A stretch of DNA of 36,273 bases from a virus. Positions 2,906-36,273 of the stretch are shown one piece after another. The stretch lies in the IMG/VR virus record IMGVR_UViG_3300014501_000011, positions 1-36,273 of that record; one strand, given 5' to 3'. The notes under the pieces are model-generated. The model saw only the letters and a program-made list of their open reading frames with translations, was not told the DNA's origin and made no database searches. Positions within the stretch are counted from its first letter, which is position 1. Each line of letters begins with the position of its first letter. A program made the position numbers and the translations under genes.

Positions 2906-3223
2906 TTATAAAAGTTTACCTAAAAAAACTTTTAATACGGTAATTATAATTCCTGTCATGACGGTTATTCCGGTAATTTGTATGCCGATAATCCATTTAA
3001 TTATTTCAAATTTCAGTTTATATTCTAAGGATTGCAATTTTACATCTAAATACTCCTTGGTAATAAAAGGCTCTAGTTTTTTATCTAAATACTCCTTAGT
3101 AACTAAGTTGCTTGTATCCATATTCAAATTGTTGTCACGTCTAGTTTGTTTAGCCGCACCCTTTTTCGGCTCTGTTTTGTAAACTCGTTTAGGTTTTTTA
3201 TCTTGTCCTGGTTCTTGTCTCAT
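2906..3223 (-). CDS. Coiled-coil, C-terminal membrane-anchor protein, paralogue
   Basis: A 105-residue protein when started at MRQEPGQDKK, chosen because AGGA lies eight bases upstream and the start abuts the recombinase stop; a longer frame begins further up with TTG/ATG inside the recombinase gene. It has a lysine/arginine-rich N terminus, two VTKEYLD/ITKEYLD repeats, and a C-terminal membrane helix (IIGIQITGITVMTGIIITVL). It is clearly related to 2257-2667 but lacks the AEVRAEF heptads. The family resembles DUF1640/Bdr proteins. Role unknown; an inner-membrane tail-anchored protein is likely. Confidence 0.65.
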   Translation of the reverse strand: MRQEPGQDKKPKRVYKTEPKKGAAKQTRRDNNLNMDTSNLVTKEYLDKKLEPFITKEYLDVKLQSLEYKLKFEIIKWIIGIQITGITVMTGIIITVLKVFLGKLL

Positions 3224-3224
3224 A

Positions 3225-3827
3225 TTATTTTTCCTGATTTTGGTTTTTTGTTGGATAAGTGCCATCAATCTTAGCTCTATTAATATATTGGTAAACTGTA
3301 ACTGTAGTTATTTTAAACATTTTTGCAATTTCATATATGGGCGTTCCAGTAGCATGTAAAGCTAATAATGATTTCGTACTTTCTGGTGATAATTGAAAGG
3401 GTCGCCCCCCACAACGCCCCCTTGCTCTTGCCGCTGCCAATCCCGCAAGAGTACGCTCACTAATAGTTTGACGCTGTCTTTGACTAATAGACATCATTAT
3501 ATTAAATACCATCTCCCCATTTGGGTCATTAGTATCAAAAGGCTCTGTCAAACTTTTGAAATGTATTTTTTTATCTTTAAAGTCTGCAATCATTTTTGCA
3601 GCATCTAGTACTGATCGAGAGATACGGTCGCTATGTGTTACCGTTAAAATATCCCCCTCTCTTAGATAATTTAAACACTCTTGAAGAACAGGGCGATTTT
3701 TAACAGACTTACCACTAGCCTTTTCTTTGAAGATTTTTATACATCCTGCCTTTTCTAAGGCATCCACCTGATGATCTAAATTTTGTTCCGAAGTAGAAAC
3801 TCTAGCATATCCTATTAATGCCATCAT
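3225..3827 (-). CDS. Serine recombinase of the resolvase/invertase family
   Basis: A 200-residue protein with the full small serine-recombinase plan: YARVSTSEQNLDHQ near the N terminus carries the nucleophilic serine (S12 if counted from the first of two ATGs), followed by the SDRISRS motif, the long E helix with SERTLAGLAAARARGR, then GRP and a C-terminal helix-turn-helix (IYEIAKMFKITTVTVYQYI). The size fits resolvases of Tn3 type and invertases of Hin/Gin type, not large serine integrases. It could resolve multimers of a circular molecule or invert the flanked segment. Two 12-bp repeats lie upstream, at 3878-3901. Confidence 0.93.
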   Translation of the reverse strand: MMALIGYARVSTSEQNLDHQVDALEKAGCIKIFKEKASGKSVKNRPVLQECLNYLREGDILTVTHSDRISRSVLDAAKMIADFKDKKIHFKSLTEPFDTNDPNGEMVFNIMMSISQRQRQTISERTLAGLAAARARGRCGGRPFQLSPESTKSLLALHATGTPIYEIAKMFKITTVTVYQYINRAKIDGTYPTKNQNQEK

Positions 3828-5027: not shown

Positions 5028-5089
5028 AACGATTGTGTTTATATATAAACCAATATATTATATATCAATATGTTACATGGTATAATGAA

Positions 5090-5734
5090 ATGGAAATGAA
5101 ATATAAAATCCTTATCGTAGCGTTACTTAATACGTATTGTTTTTTAGCTAATGCCGATAATTATAATTCATATGTTAAGGCCGAATCGGGCGTATCAATT
5201 TTTAGTAAATTAAAAAGCCAAAATTATTCAGATAAGCCAAATTCAACTATGCACCTACATCTATCGGTAGGTAGAAAAATATCTAATTCTTTTCATGTGG
5301 AATTACACTCTTATAATAACTATTCTAAATATCAAGAGATCAAAAAGGGCACTCTATATAATCAAGATTTTGAAACACATGCGGGGTTCGTTAATGTTAC
5401 ATATGATATAGGTAAATATAATATAGCTACCCCATTTATAACAGCAGGGCTTGGGATGTCTTTTAATAAGACCTATACCTTACAAGCAATGGGTGGTAAT
5501 AACGGTATAAGAGGCGGAGAATCTAACTTTTCACCTGCTTATAGTATAGGTATTGGCACTAAAGTATCTATATCGCCAACATCCGATATGGTATTTGGCT
5601 ATAAGTATATGAATCTAGGATTAGCTACAACGGGTGCTGATCTATCCGCAATAAGTGGTAGCTCTTTTGCAACACCCATAAAAGCCAAAATAACCCATCA
5701 AACTTTATCCGTGGGAATGATCTATCGTTTTTAA
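5090..5734 (+). CDS. Outer-membrane beta-barrel protein
   Basis: The protein has an N-terminal signal peptide (MKYKILIVALLNTYCFLANA, cut before DNYNSY) and about 190 residues of alternating strands ending in SVGMIYRF, a C-terminal aromatic as needed for barrel insertion. Strand hairpins such as GVSIFSKL, THAGFVNVTYDI and FGYKYMNLGLAT suggest eight strands, as in the OmpA/OmpW-like opacity or rickettsial Adr-type families. An earlier in-frame ATG at 5033 gives a poor leader and was rejected. Cargo of this kind may alter the host surface, for example in adhesion or phage exclusion; that is inference. Confidence 0.75.
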   Translation: MEMKYKILIVALLNTYCFLANADNYNSYVKAESGVSIFSKLKSQNYSDKPNSTMHLHLSVGRKISNSFHVELHSYNNYSKYQEIKKGTLYNQDFETHAGFVNVTYDIGKYNIATPFITAGLGMSFNKTYTLQAMGGNNGIRGGESNFSPAYSIGIGTKVSISPTSDMVFGYKYMNLGLATTGADLSAISGSSFATPIKAKITHQTLSVGMIYRF

Positions 5735-13574: not shown

Positions 13575-14816
13575 TCACCTCTTGTAATTCGGATCTATCT
13601 TTCTTATTCGCTTTAATAAATACCCTTCGCTTGGGTCTCTTTTGCTAGAAACTTCGGCAGCATCACCTTTTTGTGGCTTTTCACCAAAAATTGCTTCTTT
13701 CCAGTTAGTCAGACTGTCTCTATTAACTGTTATATTATTGTTGTTATCTTGAGCAAATAGTGGATTCTGATTCACATATTTTGCCCAGGCGACTTTAAAT
13801 TCATTAGCATTTCCCCCTCGTTTAATCCATTCGTTAGCGGCATCTGAGAATTCTATATCTCGCTGAGCGGAAAGCTCCAGATTCTCTATTATTTGACGAT
13901 TGCCCTCTTCTGTATTGTCTACGTTAGGTTTGGTAGCCAATATAATCTTCATATCGTTATCACTTTGTGAGCCTTTTTGCTCTATGGCAATATCTAATGC
14001 CAATCGACTGGTAATGGCAACAAAACGCTCATAAGCTGCGGCCCTTTTTGTTTTAAAAGCTCTCTGCTGTTGATAGGATAGCGCATTAAAAGTCCCAGAA
14101 GAAAATTTAGGTATTAATAATTTTGCCTGTTGAAACTGCGGAAGCAATTTAGAGCTAGCTATACTTACATCACCCGCTTTAGTTAAAAACTCATCATTCA
14201 TCTTTCTTTTTTCTTTCCGGACTTCCTTTTCTTCTTCGGCAGTTTCACGCCTGATGTCCATCTTATCACGCGGAGTAATATAAGGATTATTGGGATTTTG
14301 TGTTTCCGGCATAGGGGCTATGCTATCAGGTATAGGATTTTCACGTTGCTGTTGTATAAGATTGGCCATTCCGCCCATTCCTTGGCCACCCTGTGCATCG
14401 GGCACTATATTTGAAAGTCCCGTCACTAACCCATTTTGCTTGCGCTGCTTGACATATTCACCCGTGACATGATTACTGATAACGTTTTCTTCAGGCTGCA
14501 TTTGCGCATACAAAGCTTGCTGGCGTTTAGCATCTTCTGCCTGTGCCATCTGTTGCTTATAAGTTATCTCTGCTGCAATAGGTAATGTATCTCCTAGGGA
14601 TTTACCGCTGCCCGCTGCAATCAGCATAGCCAATCCAAGAGTATTGTCCGGAGTAGGCATTTGCTGCTGCTGTTGCTGGGGTTGCTGCTGTTGCTGCTGT
14701 TGCTGGGGTTGCTGCTGTTGCTGCTGTTGCTGGGGTTGCTGCTGTTGCTGAAGCTGCTGTTGTTGCCCCTGCTGTCTAGGCTCTCTCAAATAACTACCCA
14801 ATAATTGACTTAACAT
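13575..14816 (-). CDS. Virion protein with a glutamine-proline repeat N terminus
   Basis: A 413-residue protein. Residues 12-50 are a near-pure glutamine tract broken by prolines (QPQQQQQQQ repeats). Next, NTLGLAMLIAAGSGKSLGDTLPIAAEITYKQQMAQAEDAK is a typical helical segment of podovirus internal proteins. The rest is helical and hydrophilic with KEVRKEKRKMNDEFLTKAGD. Located between 14819-15655 and the large 11408 protein, it is probably an ejection or internal head protein. The poly-glutamine tract is encoded by a CAG/CAA microsatellite likely to vary in length. Confidence 0.6.
   Translation of the reverse strand: MLSQLLGSYLREPRQQGQQQQLQQQQQPQQQQQQQQPQQQQQQQQPQQQQQQMPTPDNTLGLAMLIAAGSGKSLGDTLPIAAEITYKQQMAQAEDAKRQQALYAQMQPEENVISNHVTGEYVKQRKQNGLVTGLSNIVPDAQGGQGMGGMANLIQQQRENPIPDSIAPMPETQNPNNPYITPRDKMDIRRETAEEEKEVRKEKRKMNDEFLTKAGDVSIASSKLLPQFQQAKLLIPKFSSGTFNALSYQQQRAFKTKRAAAYERFVAITSRLALDIAIEQKGSQSDNDMKIILATKPNVDNTEEGNRQIIENLELSAQRDIEFSDAANEWIKRGGNANEFKVAWAKYVNQNPLFAQDNNNNITVNRDSLTNWKEAIFGEKPQKGDAAEVSSKRDPSEGYLLKRIRKIDPNYKR
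14661..14775. repeat. 27-bp-period poly-glutamine repeat
   Basis: Repeats of the plus-strand unit TGGGGTTGCTGCTGTTGCTG... recur with about 27-bp spacing, with CTGTTGCTG subrepeats. On the coding strand they give QPQQQQQQQ blocks. Unit number could change by slippage or RecT-assisted annealing without breaking the frame. Confidence 0.85.
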
Positions 14817-21575: not shown

Positions 21576-21905
21576 ATGGCACATTCATTAAGTCTACCGG
21601 ATGATCTATATGAAAAGATTAAAGAAGAAGCTAGCACTGCATGCCGCTCAATCCCTATGCAAATTAAATACGCTATGAAAGTACTGCAAGCATATAAAAT
21701 GTCAGAAGCTAATGATTGGTTAGATATGCCCAATGCTTTAATGATTATAGAACGCTCTGAAATGGCGAAGAAAAATGAAAATTTAATATTAGTAGAGGAT
21801 ATAGATGCTTTTTTTTCTGAAGTTAGCAAAGAAGGAAATAAACCATTGGGAAAAAGTAGATCCCAAAAAAGCGAAAAAGATTCGCGAATTGGTACGCAGT
21901 ATTAA
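21576..21905 (+). CDS. Antitoxin of a YoeB-type pair
   Basis: The 109-residue protein begins MAHSLSLPDDLYEKIKEEASTACRSIPMQIKYAMKVLQAY, a ribbon-helix-helix start of the ParD/StbD kind (strand, LPDDLYEKI helix, then SIPMQI). RSEMAKKNENLILVEDIDAFFSEVSKEGN is the flexible toxin-binding end, and the tail is lysine/serine-rich. AGAGG precedes the ATG. Its last 100 bases overlap the toxin gene in another frame, so the tail from about residue 77 encodes both proteins. It should neutralise the toxin and repress the promoter upstream. Confidence 0.7.
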   Translation: MAHSLSLPDDLYEKIKEEASTACRSIPMQIKYAMKVLQAYKMSEANDWLDMPNALMIIERSEMAKKNENLILVEDIDAFFSEVSKEGNKPLGKSRSQKSEKDSRIGTQY

Positions 21906-22059
21906 ACTTAATCCTCGAGAAGGCATCGGAAAACCTGAACATCTTAAACACCATGAGATTGAGACTTGGTCAAGACGCATAGACCAAGAACATAGGCTAG
22001 TTTATGAAATATACGAAGATAAAATAATTATCCTATCCGCTAGAGATCATTATAAGTAA
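21805..22059 (+). CDS. yoeB-like: YoeB/Txe-type mRNA-cleaving toxin
   Basis: The 84-residue protein has the length and signatures of YoeB: INHWEKVDPKKAKKIRELVRSI, GIGKPEHLKH (the catalytic-type glutamate), SRRIDQEHRLVYEIYEDK and a C-terminal RDHYK with the conserved histidine. YoeB is a RelE-fold RNase that cuts mRNA at the ribosome. The start is set by AGAGG six bases upstream, inside the antitoxin frame; an eight-T run follows at 21809-21816. The overlap of 101 bp is unusually long. The pair may stabilise the phage-plasmid or protect against competing phages. Confidence 0.88.
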   Translation: MLFFLKLAKKEINHWEKVDPKKAKKIRELVRSIKLNPREGIGKPEHLKHHEIETWSRRIDQEHRLVYEIYEDKIIILSARDHYK

Positions 22060-32002: not shown

Positions 32003-32374
32003 TTGAAAATCAAGCCCCCAAAGGAAAAAGATATTTGCAAAGCTTTTTATAAGCAATATAAGGAATTGAAAGCTTATAACCAGTTTAAGAACAATGCTTT
32101 TGTATTTCACATTGCTAATGAGCAGAATTGCAACCGTAGTTATACTATAATGCTTAAGGGAATGGGATTGACTGCGGGAGTTGCTGACTATTGCGTAATA
32201 ACTAATGATGGTAGGGTTGCATTTATAGAGTTTAAACGTGATGCTAAGTGCAAGCTAAGCCCTAAGCAATTAGAGTTTAAAGCTGAGTGCGAGCAGCGTG
32301 ACATTGTTTATAAGGTAGTTTGGAATGTTGACGAGGCTATTAAGTTTTTAAGTGGTAACACAATCTTAACATAA
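32003..32374 (+). CDS. VRR-NUC domain nuclease
   Basis: The 123-residue protein carries the VRR-NUC core: NCNRSYTIMLKGMGLTAGVADYCVI has the glycine-x-aspartate catalytic site, FIEFKRDAKCKLSPKQLEFKAECEQRDIVYKVV the E-x-K plus Q motif. This fold is found in phage and host endonucleases (FAN1 type) that resolve branched DNA. The start is TTG, as no in-frame ATG fits before the domain; no ribosome site is seen. In this phage it could process recombination intermediates made by RecT. Confidence 0.88.
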   Translation: MKIKPPKEKDICKAFYKQYKELKAYNQFKNNAFVFHIANEQNCNRSYTIMLKGMGLTAGVADYCVITNDGRVAFIEFKRDAKCKLSPKQLEFKAECEQRDIVYKVVWNVDEAIKFLSGNTILT

Positions 32375-33198: not shown

Positions 33199-33492
33199 AT
33201 GAGTAATATATTTGAATGTTTTGTCGGTAAACATTGTATAATTAGAACATATTCGGCAGGTGTTCACATGGGAGTTGTTAAAGCAGTAGGTGAAAAATCT
33301 GTAATATTGCAGAATGTAAAAAGACTTTGGTTTTGGAAGGGTGCTTTTACACTTAATGAGGTAGCGACTATTGGGATTGGATCAGGAAGCAGGGTATCAA
33401 TTGAAGTCGAAGAAATTGGTTTGACGGAAGTTATAGAATATCTACCGACTACTGAGAAAGCTAGAGGGACTTATGAAAAGTATATCGAATAA
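33199..33492 (+). CDS. DUF6948-like phage protein (97 aa)
   Basis: ECFVGKHCIIRTYSAGVHMGVVKAVGEKSVILQNVKRLWFWKGAFTLNEVA matches the DUF6948 core (RTYSAGVHxG, the RxWxWKGA motif) found in many phages. Its end, SIEVEEIGLTEVIEYLPTTEKA, is typical too. In several phages this domain is followed in the same frame by a glycine-X tail; here the tail is split off into overlapping genes in other frames, beginning with ATG at 33473 inside this gene's last 20 bases. GGAG precedes the start. Confidence 0.75.
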   Translation: MSNIFECFVGKHCIIRTYSAGVHMGVVKAVGEKSVILQNVKRLWFWKGAFTLNEVATIGIGSGSRVSIEVEEIGLTEVIEYLPTTEKARGTYEKYIE

Positions 33493-33766
33493 TATGAGTA
33501 TTGACGATGGCAATGGCTCTGGCGATGGTTCTGGCTATGGCCATGGCGATGGCGATGGCTATGGCAAGGGCTATGGCTATGGCAAGGGCTATGGTTGTGG
33601 CAATGGCTATGGCAATGGCTATGGTTCTGGCTCTGGTTCTAGCTATGGCTCAGGTTCTAGCTCTGGTTCTGGCGATGGTTCTGGCTCTGGCCATGGCTCT
33701 GGCGATGGCTCTGGCCATGGCGATGGCGCTGGCGCTGGCGATGGCGATGGCGAGGGATCTGGATGA
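33473..33766 (+). CDS. Gly-X repeat protein 1 (97 aa)
   Basis: After a start shared with two later genes (MKSISNNMSI), the protein is about 80 residues of Gly-X pairs, with X being aspartate, serine, tyrosine, asparagine, histidine or lysine (GDGSGYGHGDGDGYGKGYG). It would be disordered and acidic to neutral. It overlaps the preceding gene by 20 bases and the next by ATGA. Comparable tails follow DUF6948 domains in other phages. It may bind ions or form a fibrous coat, but no function is known. Confidence 0.6.
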   Translation: MKSISNNMSIDDGNGSGDGSGYGHGDGDGYGKGYGYGKGYGCGNGYGNGYGSGSGSSYGSGSSSGSGDGSGSGHGSGDGSGHGDGAGAGDGDGEGSG

Positions 33767-34392
33767 AAAGTATATTGAATAATATTATTATTGGCTATAG
33801 CTATGGAGATGGCGGTAGCTATCGCTATCGCTATGGCTATGGCTATGGCGATGGTTCTAGCTCTGGCGATGGCAATGGCAATGGCTCTGGCGATGGTGAT
33901 GGTGCCGGCTATGGCGATGGATCAGGTGATGGTGCCGGCGATGGCTATGGTTATGGCTATGGCCATGGCGAGGGATCTGGTTCTGGCGAGGGCGATGGCG
34001 AGGGTTGTGGCTATGGCCATGGCGAGGGATCTGGTTCTGGCGAGGGCGATGGCGAGGGCTATGGCCATGGCGAGGGTTGTGGCTCTGGCAATGGTGATGG
34101 ATCAGGTTCTGGATGAAAAGTATATCGAATAATATGAGTATTGGCGATGGCTATGGTTCTGGCTATGGCTATGGCTATGGCGATGGCCATGGCGATGGCT
34201 ATGGTTATGGAGATGGCACCGGCTATGGCTATGGTTATGGCTATGGTTATGGCGAGGGCAATGGCTCTGGCTCTGGCTCTGGCGATGGTGATGGTGCCGG
34301 CTCTGGCGATGGATCAGGTTCTGGCTCTGGCTCTGGCAATGGTTATGGTTCTGGCTCTGGTTATGGCTATGGCACTGGCTCTGGAGATGGCT
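33507..34392. repeat. Hexamer-type GGC-NNT low-complexity repeat array
   Basis: The DNA is a degenerate GGCNNT array (GGCTAT, GGCTCT, GGCGAT, GGCAAT and similar), three blocks of about 270, 310 and 260 bp. The blocks are separated by near-identical joints at 33463-33502, 33757-33792 and 34107-34142 holding a TGAAAAGTATATCGAATAA string. Each block is open in several frames on both strands because the repeat has no stop. Length and composition are expected to be unstable. Confidence 0.9.
33763..34116 (+). CDS. Gly-X repeat protein 2 (117 aa)
   Basis: The start MKSILNNIIIGYSYGDGGSYRYRYGYGYG follows the ATGA joint with gene 1. The rest alternates glycine with aspartate, serine, tyrosine, histidine or glutamate (GEGSGSGEGDGEG), somewhat more acidic than protein 1. 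A 60-bp internal duplication (GHGEGSGSGEGDGEG twice) is clear. It ends GSGSGSG with TGA overlapping the next ATG. It is most likely expressed through coupled translation. Confidence 0.6.
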   Translation: MKSILNNIIIGYSYGDGGSYRYRYGYGYGDGSSSGDGNGNGSGDGDGAGYGDGSGDGAGDGYGYGYGHGEGSGSGEGDGEGCGYGHGEGSGSGEGDGEGYGHGEGCGSGNGDGSGSG

Positions 34393-34394
34393 AA
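34113..34394 (+). CDS. Gly-X repeat protein 3 (93 aa)
   Basis: A third copy beginning MKSISNNMSIGDGYGSGYGYGYGDG, with the same dipeptide grammar and a higher tyrosine content in its first half (GYGYGYGYGEG), then serine-rich (GSGSGSGDGDGAG). It ends with TAA and overlaps the next gene by eight bases. All three proteins therefore come from duplication of one cassette of start joint plus repeat. Confidence 0.6.
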   Translation: MKSISNNMSIGDGYGSGYGYGYGDGHGDGYGYGDGTGYGYGYGYGYGEGNGSGSGSGDGDGAGSGDGSGSGSGSGNGYGSGSGYGYGTGSGDG

Positions 34395-34692
34395 ATATCA
34401 AAGCAGAGAGTTTTATATGCCTATATTATCAAGCAACGAACGCAAAGTACTTAATTTTCTTAAGGAAATAAGTAATGATGGGAAAAAGCCTATAACGGTA
34501 ACATCTCATACTCTATCAAGGGAAGAGTTTTTAAAATCTATTATGAGGGGGGCTAAAGTTCCATTACAGGAAGTTAGGCTCTCTGCAAGATCATTACTTG
34601 GGAATGAACTTATTACAGAGTCTATTGAAATGATTTCGCTAGCTGCGCCTAGACGGTATAAATCTATTACTTGGCATTTGAATATTAGTTGA
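34387..34692 (+). CDS. Small possibly winged-helix protein (101 aa)
   Basis: From ATG at 34387 (MAKYQSREFYMPILSSNERKVLNFLKEIS) the protein is helical and then has RLSARSLLGNELITESIEMISLAAPRRYKSITWHLNIS, a helix plus strand pattern like a winged helix. An internal ATG at 34417 (MPILSS) has a better AGAGAG ribosome site and is a fair alternative. The frame is open for another 82 codons upstream in the repeat, but only as a low-complexity MAMAM stretch that I reject as coding. It closes the rightward transcript. Confidence 0.55.
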   Translation: MAKYQSREFYMPILSSNERKVLNFLKEISNDGKKPITVTSHTLSREEFLKSIMRGAKVPLQEVRLSARSLLGNELITESIEMISLAAPRRYKSITWHLNIS

Positions 34693-34694
34693 GG

Positions 34695-34925
34695 TCAGGA
34701 TTTTCTTTTTTTAATCTTTTCTGTTAACTCAAGTACTTTATCGTAGTCAGCTCTTAACCTGATTACTGAATTCGCCGTTGCCTCTGATAATTCCGCTAGT
34801 GCATCCATACCTCGATCCTGGAGTATAACCCTTCTACCAATATCGTTTATTAACTGCCTCATAAAAACAAAAATAATCATAACAAGCAACTGTATTACTA
34901 CTAATGCACCTATTACTAACTCCAC
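34695..34925 (-). CDS. Small membrane-anchored coiled coil (76 aa)
   Basis: GTG is the only start, inside the end of the replication gene, with GAGG five bases upstream. A membrane helix (LVIGALVVIQLLVMIIFVFM) is followed by a cytoplasmic helical tail (AELSEATANSVIRLRADYDKVLELTEKIKKRKS). Coupling to the replication gene suggests a partner that holds it to the membrane or a spanin-like small protein. It is only two bp from the end of the convergent 34387 gene. Confidence 0.55.
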   Translation of the reverse strand: MELVIGALVVIQLLVMIIFVFMRQLINDIGRRVILQDRGMDALAELSEATANSVIRLRADYDKVLELTEKIKKRKS

Positions 34926-35905
34926 GATAACCTCACGTCTATATTATGGATATTCGGGTTAACACTTTTTATTATATTCTCAATGACTTGTAAATAATTA
35001 TCTATAACCCAAGTGCGTATAAACTTAGTGGGCACACTGATTATTAAAGTTGCCCCCTCTATGCACTGGAATTTTAAATGAGATATCCAGCTAGTCATTA
35101 CTTCCTCGTCAAATTGCTTTTTAAACTCTTCAATGATTAAAGGCTCAATGCTTTTAGTAACAGAATCCTGTTTCCTGGGCTTAGGAGCGATTCCTAGAGG
35201 GGGAAATGATGTTTTGGATGGTATTATAGGTTCAGGCCAACTCTTACGATTGCAGCACCAGTTTTCAAAGGCTTTGTCCCAATCTACTTTTTCCTGCTTA
35301 TTAGCCATGTAAAACTTGATAAAGTCCTTTAAGGCCACTTTTAGGGCTGCATCACTGCAGGCATGCTTCTTTTTTATATTTAGATTGGTTCTAGGTGTTG
35401 GCATCCAACCTTCAAACATAAATAAATTTTCTTCTTCTTTTTTTTCTTCGCAAGAAGAAGAAGTCTCTGTGCTAGTCTCTGTAATACTTATATATGATTT
35501 GGACTCTTTGACTAAACCCATTTGGTCAATTTGTCCAAATGGATTTGGCGGAATTAAGCTATTGAATTTGTTATAATCTATCGCGTACCATTTGGTTCTA
35601 TCAAACTTATTCTTATTATGATTTGCGCTAATTAGAATGCCCGATTTTTCAAGAGAATCTAAAGTTCTTGTTATTGTCTTAGGCGACCAAAACTTAAATT
35701 GCTTTTGCCATTCTAGTACTGAATTATAAGTCCAATACTTACCGTCAATATAATTACGCCCATCATCTTCGTTCTTGCTTAGCCAATATTCTATCTGTTG
35801 TAAAACTATGGCCTCATTAATGCCTATAAGACACGCAAGGTCGGGGTCTAAAAGTAAAGGTTGGCGTTTGTGTAAATACCTAAGGTTATTAGTTGTATTA
35901 GTCAT
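34916..35905 (-). CDS. Replication protein with winged helix and DnaA N-terminal-like domain
   Basis: The 329-residue protein has two parts. Residues 10-110 (RQPLLLDPDLACLIGINEAIVLQQIEYWL, KYWTYNSVLEWQKQF, FWSPKTITRTLDSLEKSGIL) form a winged helix common to phage replication initiators. Residues 262-329 (EEFKKQFDEEVMTSWISHLKFQ, TLIISVPTKFIRTWVIDNYLQVIENII) match the DnaA domain I type that binds DnaB helicase. The middle is acidic and poorly conserved. A helicase-recruiting initiator is the likely role. GGAGGG precedes the start. The combination is known from Rickettsiales plasmids. Confidence 0.85.
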   Translation of the reverse strand: MTNTTNNLRYLHKRQPLLLDPDLACLIGINEAIVLQQIEYWLSKNEDDGRNYIDGKYWTYNSVLEWQKQFKFWSPKTITRTLDSLEKSGILISANHNKNKFDRTKWYAIDYNKFNSLIPPNPFGQIDQMGLVKESKSYISITETSTETSSSCEEKKEEENLFMFEGWMPTPRTNLNIKKKHACSDAALKVALKDFIKFYMANKQEKVDWDKAFENWCCNRKSWPEPIIPSKTSFPPLGIAPKPRKQDSVTKSIEPLIIEEFKKQFDEEVMTSWISHLKFQCIEGATLIISVPTKFIRTWVIDNYLQVIENIIKSVNPNIHNIDVRLSWS

Positions 35906-36085: not shown

Positions 36086-36273
36086 TAACTTGACGGGTGT
36101 TGGGTTTTTGATTTAGATTGCAATTATTCATATATCTCCTATGTTTTGTGTTGCAGCTTACTAGGAGATATTTTTTTGCCCATAAGTCAAGCAAATTTAC
36201 CCCTCCTAATAAATAATTATAAAAAGTAGTAAATTTAACTTGACGGGTGTTGGGTTTTTGATTTAGATTGCAA
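36086..36273. repeat. 150-bp tandem repeat, right part and terminal overlap
   Basis: The unit from 36086 recurs at 36236 (150 bp), and its last 97 bases equal the first 97 of the window. Only two single-base differences (GCAG for GTAA near 36153) separate this copy from that at 60-120. It includes the 10-bp hairpin plus T run at 36132-36177. It lies between the replication gene and the iteron-like repeats once the ends are joined. Confidence 0.85.

Follow-up and report, generated by a model that had tools for sequence, protein, structure and literature searches.

Proteins of the Sm/LSm/Hfq superfamily, among them the archaeal SmAP proteins and the marine LSm-like structure 3by7, combine a helix with a five-stranded small barrel. 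Low-complexity tails are frequent on Sm-family proteins, and Hfq and LSm4 carry disordered tails of this kind, fused to the chain that forms the barrel. A second described entity is the Pfam family PF22253 (DUF6948). Its entry covers the domain alone, and neither an overlapping partner gene nor an Sm-like fold is part of it. In the literature searched, the DUF6948 domain and the Gly-X repeat strings were not mentioned. The DNA analysed here, called the window, is a 36,273-bp virus record. It contains a DUF6948 gene, a clear member of PF22253, followed by three genes encoding (Gly-X)n proteins. As with the Hfq and LSm4 tails, a low-complexity segment is tied to a protein of predicted Sm fold; here, however, it is a separate protein with Gly strictly at every second position. 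The general pair (predicted Sm-like protein and separate Gly-X protein) is more interesting than its multiplication in the window: it is widespread in phages, and almost every DUF6948 stretch examined with sufficient sequence has a Gly-X array.

Locus layout

The features of the locus are listed in Table 1. The window DUF6948 protein matched PF22253 with E = 1.9e-22 (79.6 bits against a gathering score of 27) and ends in ...TYEKYIE*. Gly-X gene 1 overlaps its gene by 20 nt, and Gly-X genes 1 and 2 and genes 2 and 3 overlap by 4 nt each (ATGA). The ORF coordinates were checked, and the three Gly-X ORFs occupy three different frames. These overlaps agree exactly with those given in an earlier note on this DNA. 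Its fourth overlap, 8 nt between Gly-X gene 3 and the next ORF, requires ATG 34387 as the start, and ATG 34417 is equally plausible. A family search with this last ORF gave no match. Gly-X gene 2 contains a tandem duplication of about 60 bp inside its array. Neighbours in the window are an endonuclease-like ORF (32003-32374) and a replication initiator (34916-35905).

Table 1. Coordinates of the DUF6948 gene, the Gly-X genes and the joints in the window
Feature	Position	Strand	Remarks
DUF6948 gene, 97 aa, predicted Sm/LSm-like fold	33199..33492	+	PF22253 match, structure model
Joint 1	33473..33505	+	DUF6948 end (EKYIE*) and Gly-X 1 start (MKSISNN)
Gly-X gene 1, 97 aa	33473..33766	+	N-terminus MKSISNNMSID; +1 frame, begins within the DUF6948 3' end
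Joint 2	33763..33795	+	Duplicated, diverged (MKSILNN)
Gly-X gene 2, 117 aa	33763..34116	+	N-terminus MKSILNNIIIG; more diverged copy
Joint 3	34113..34145	+	Duplicated
Gly-X gene 3, 93 aa	34113..34394	+	N-terminus MKSISNNMSIG; joint near-identical to joint 1
Next ORF, 101 aa (91 aa if ATG 34417)	34387..34692	+	

The start of Gly-X gene 1 is preceded by agaggga, which resembles a ribosome-binding site, and that of Gly-X gene 2 by gaggga, supplied by the end of array 1. The region upstream of Gly-X gene 3 was checked and holds no good ribosome-binding motif, so that translation of this gene would depend on coupling alone. Overlapping stops and starts are compatible with the coupled translation proposed in the note, as far as the sequence can tell.

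The three Gly-X genes start at copies of one duplicated joint, as had been proposed. The 24-nt joint ATGAAAAGTATATCGAATAATATG has perfect copies at 33473 and 34113 and one with no more than two mismatches at 33763. It was absent from the rest of the 36 kb on both strands with up to three mismatches allowed. Because it is restricted to the three Gly-X starts, it is not a chance similarity. Joint 3 is nearly the same as joint 1, and joint 2 has diverged. The EKYIE peptide also terminates readings in other frames (33501-33782 and 33791-34132), which bears out the claim that it ends a preceding frame at the joints. Ala-Met frames were rejected as genes, being an automatic result of the GGCNNT array, which is stop-free in every frame.

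On the 5' side of the ATG, TCTGG is common to joints 2 and 3, and joint 1 has the DUF6948 context. The simplest history suggested by the sequence would be one illegitimate join, in which short-homology recombination linked an array end (...TCTGG) to the joint ATG and so duplicated the unit of joint and array. Further recombination between arrays would then have produced three genes, each start overlapping the prior stop as ATGA. The EKYIE/MKSISNN joint of the window matches the TYxKFIE/MSNLSKIK type of five other loci (L030, L044, L060, L079 and L084).

Predicted fold of the DUF6948 protein

An AlphaFold2 model of DUF6948 built from 63 sequences (pLDDT 96.3) consists of a helix and a five-stranded small bent barrel. 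Among the best 50 PDB matches listed by Foldseek and by VIA-align, almost all were Sm/LSm chains. The best Foldseek E-value was 1.5e-3, so that none reached 0.001; the best VIA-align match was yeast SmF (Z 9.1, rmsd 1.8 over 68 residues, about 10% identity). DUF6948 is thus predicted to have an Sm/LSm fold by similarity of the model, which would not in itself prove homology or RNA binding. Unlike the superfamily, it has a helix inserted between strands 3 and 4 and a motif of its own, RTYSxGV. This motif and W46 are conserved in DUF6948. Comparison with the Sm1/Sm2 sequence motifs gave an SM-ATX match below threshold (E=0.093), and a profile search against PDB chains gave none at E<=1. PADLOC made no assignment for DUF6948 or Gly-X, and PHROGs gave no match for DUF6948. 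A scan with the single DUF6948 sequence matched only a contig near-identical to the window.

The pair in other loci

The viral collection contains 563 DUF6948-encoding stretches. Using seven DUF6948 proteins, 80 viral and 37 genome loci were found and fetched; a contig near-identical to the window (L010) was excluded from the counts. The loci include near-duplicates and hold 98 distinct DUF6948 sequences. A Gly-X array was present in 116 of the 122 loci formed by the fetched loci and the phage records. Five of the six others have less than 75 bp downstream, and the sixth (L123) has a short DUF6948 frame. The array lay 5' of DUF6948 in 2/116 loci (L008 and L020).

In the 115 readable loci, window included, the Gly-X frame relative to DUF6948 was +1 in 56 and +2 in 54; in the remaining five it was the same frame with an intervening stop. 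A fused DUF6948-Gly-X reading frame was found in none of the 115. The Gly-X start lay inside the DUF6948 end in 97/112 loci, with overlaps mostly of 13, 23 or 29 nt, and 0-6 nt past it in 12/112. The same arrangement is found in the window, where the Gly-X ORF is directly downstream and starts within the DUF6948 end. GenBank annotation already has the separate second ORF in Pectobacterium phage Koroua and in ct8d5349; Iodobacter phage PhiPLPE is another phage with the pair.

Since none of the 115 loci is fused, the separate, overlapping and mostly out-of-frame Gly-X ORF is the ancestral rule and the normal state, and only tandem multiplication is special. The note had taken Gly-X tails fused to DUF6948 to be frequent in phages, the tail having become detached in the window. 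Neither part is supported: Gly-X gene 1 is the ancestral partner gene of DUF6948, and the proposed comparison with fused DUF6948 proteins found no such protein. Sequencing error is an unlikely cause of the frame breaks, since the family as a whole has conserved this out-of-frame layout.

Most neighbours of the loci that have a named family serve DNA metabolism and regulation (RecT/Erf/Sak4, exonucleases, helicases, HNH nucleases, methyltransferases and repressors). L025 and L036 have Gly-X arrays on both sides of DUF6948, apparently the whole pair in tandem. Many phage contigs terminate exactly at Gly-X arrays: among 79 viral contigs (L011-L089), the end lies at most 1 kb downstream of DUF6948 in 26 and at most 1 kb upstream in 6. 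Gly-X arrays break assemblies.

A reciprocal DNA-pattern scan for the Gly-X array gave 144 arrays in 120 stretches. DUF6948 was directly upstream of 95 arrays, and for 21 the upstream sequence was too short. A further 17, for the most part additional tandem copies, stand in a locus that has DUF6948; 11 are without it. Two of these 11 lie on contigs cut near the array; the other nine (L137, L203 and L221) belong to loci of a second family that is not in Pfam and has the motif DRGFVYVG...NIRxWGT. A scan for this second family found Gly-X in 16/16 loci (L247-L262). Its model (pLDDT 81.5) matched Sm/LSm structures including 3by7, and hhalign related it to DUF6948 with a probability of 87%. The Gly-X gene thus comes after a gene of predicted Sm-like fold, of either family.

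Multiplication of the Gly-X gene

Tandem Gly-X copies were also found in L078 (about 8, diverged), L137 (7), L129 (5), L174/L223 (5), L131 (3) and L126 (2). The tripling in the window is, from these sequences, probably one of several independent multiplications. The way of multiplying that the note called unusual is therefore special within the family and is not unique to the window. As in the window, L129, L137, L174 and L078 have a copied start peptide and repeats behind a predicted Sm-like gene, and L129 re-copies the preceding gene's end with every Gly-X copy. They differ from it in their joints, in having 5-8 copies, and in the gaps or different overlaps that take the place of ATGA; the Sm-like partner in L137, moreover, is of the second family.

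The joint DNA pattern was matched in viral contigs only by the near-identical contig L009 (= L002). L002 equals the window over 4505 bp with zero mismatches and then jumps from array 1 (33703) to array 3 (34166), in frame and with a 4 bp overlap. This sequence suggests a one-copy (one-module) allele. The contig stops 46 nt after the junction, which may be a chimera of assembly or PCR.

Gly-X genes 2 and 3 may be non-functional by-products of slippage, with DUF6948 and Gly-X gene 1 alone mattering here; we regard this as possible but rather unlikely. The near-identical contig may have another copy number, Gly-X gene 3 has no clear ribosome-binding motif, and most loci have a single array. Against these points, Gly-X gene 2 is clearly diverged from genes 1 and 3 and has nevertheless stayed stop-free with its frame intact, and multiplication with retained N-termini recurs in unrelated contigs.

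It is improbable that the three copies arose in assembly from an array present only once. Short-read assembly of repeats would favour such an artefact, and contigs often end in the array as counted above. The three joints and the arrays nevertheless differ in sequence, which argues against both a collapsed and a re-expanded repeat, and the record is otherwise complete, with its terminal repeat.

Translation of the Gly-X genes

In 101 arrays, X was mostly Ser, Tyr or Asp. Array Ser codons are of both the TCN and the AGY type, and all four Gly codons are used. In L078 (GGA60/GGT50/GGG22/GGC12), third positions of Gly codons are nearly free and the Gly-X alternation is kept, which would be a protein-level constraint. 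The Gly-X start codon was ATG in 95/109 cases. SD-like 4-mers preceded 53/94 Gly-X starts; for shifted control positions within the upstream gene the figure was 45/376. Both the ribosome-binding motifs and the codon use point, at the level of sequence, to real translation of Gly-X. Gly-X matches to TrAA12 (Pfam, below cut-off), NF033849 and four PDB chains were dismissed as low-complexity.

Programmed frameshifting at the joint could append Gly-X to some DUF6948 chains, the functional product then being a fusion in fixed ratio. The array is always near the DUF6948 end and mostly out of frame, and such tails are common on Sm-family proteins elsewhere. This explanation is nonetheless highly improbable. 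The occurrence of +1, +2 and stopped same-frame loci argues for independent coupled initiation instead, as do the own ATG and the enriched SD-like motifs. By eye, no common slippery sequence was seen, and copies 2 and 3 of the window are unreachable from DUF6948.

It is equally hard to believe that the array works as DNA or RNA (its G-rich hexamer being a recombination hotspot, a G-quadruplex/R-loop or a decoy) with an incidental reading frame: the GGNNNN periodicity, the three open frames and the ready recombination of arrays (L002; internal duplications) would fit, but the kept alternation of L078, both Ser codon blocks, the conserved start codons and N-terminal peptides, and a strand and position that nearly always follow the Sm-like gene speak against it.

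Proposed explanation

We favour as probable a module of two phage genes, likely to act in early nucleic-acid metabolism: one for an Sm-like protein, the other for a low-complexity partner that is translated along with it and can expand by recombination. This explanation builds on the architecture, the conservation of the overlap, the duplicated joint and the recurrent multiplication, and on the Sm-like fold as predicted; the molecular function is what we infer. DUF6948 would encode the small protein of predicted Sm/LSm fold. The (Gly-X)n protein would initiate on its own, coupled to DUF6948 termination and mostly in another frame. The Sm-like protein, if the model holds, may form a ring that binds nucleic acids. 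The Gly-X protein may be the detached, multivalent low-complexity tail of this ring, by analogy with Hfq and LSm4 and their disordered tails. Ring and tail might act during early replication or recombination, and additional Gly-X copies might increase dosage or diversity.

A more speculative version is that, in phages of bacteria (perhaps archaea), the Sm-like ring and a silk-like Gly-X protein, translated separately and expanding fast, make up an assembly or condensate of the ribonucleoprotein or ssDNA kind, tuned by recombination of Gly-X length and number; we consider this conceivable and no better than doubtful. If DUF6948 is Sm-like, a phage protein with a detached tail would offer simple natural material for studying the use of tails by the Sm fold, with the tandem Gly-X copies as a natural dosage series.

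Other features of the window

A 97-bp direct terminal repeat (1-97 and 36177-36273), with a related further copy near each end, suggests a complete genome. The terminal 20-mer is also found at 36104. A ParD/RHH-like antitoxin and a YoeB-type toxin (PF06769, E=1.2e-25) lie at 21576-22059, within the structural gene region. A serine resolvase/invertase with HTH (PF00239, E=5e-41) is encoded at 3225-3827 on the minus strand, and its start peptide MMALI is found again at the adjacent ORF 2906-3268. The ORF 5033-5734 encodes an OMP beta-barrel-like phage protein (PF13505, E=4e-5, slightly below cut-off). Two further repeats were seen: a tandem repeat of 21/33/54 bp at 2374-2482, giving AEVRAEF repeats in a coiled-coil-like ORF, and a 27-bp tandem repeat at 14665-14775 (minus strand), giving a poly-Gln run in the N-terminal part of ORF 13575-14816.
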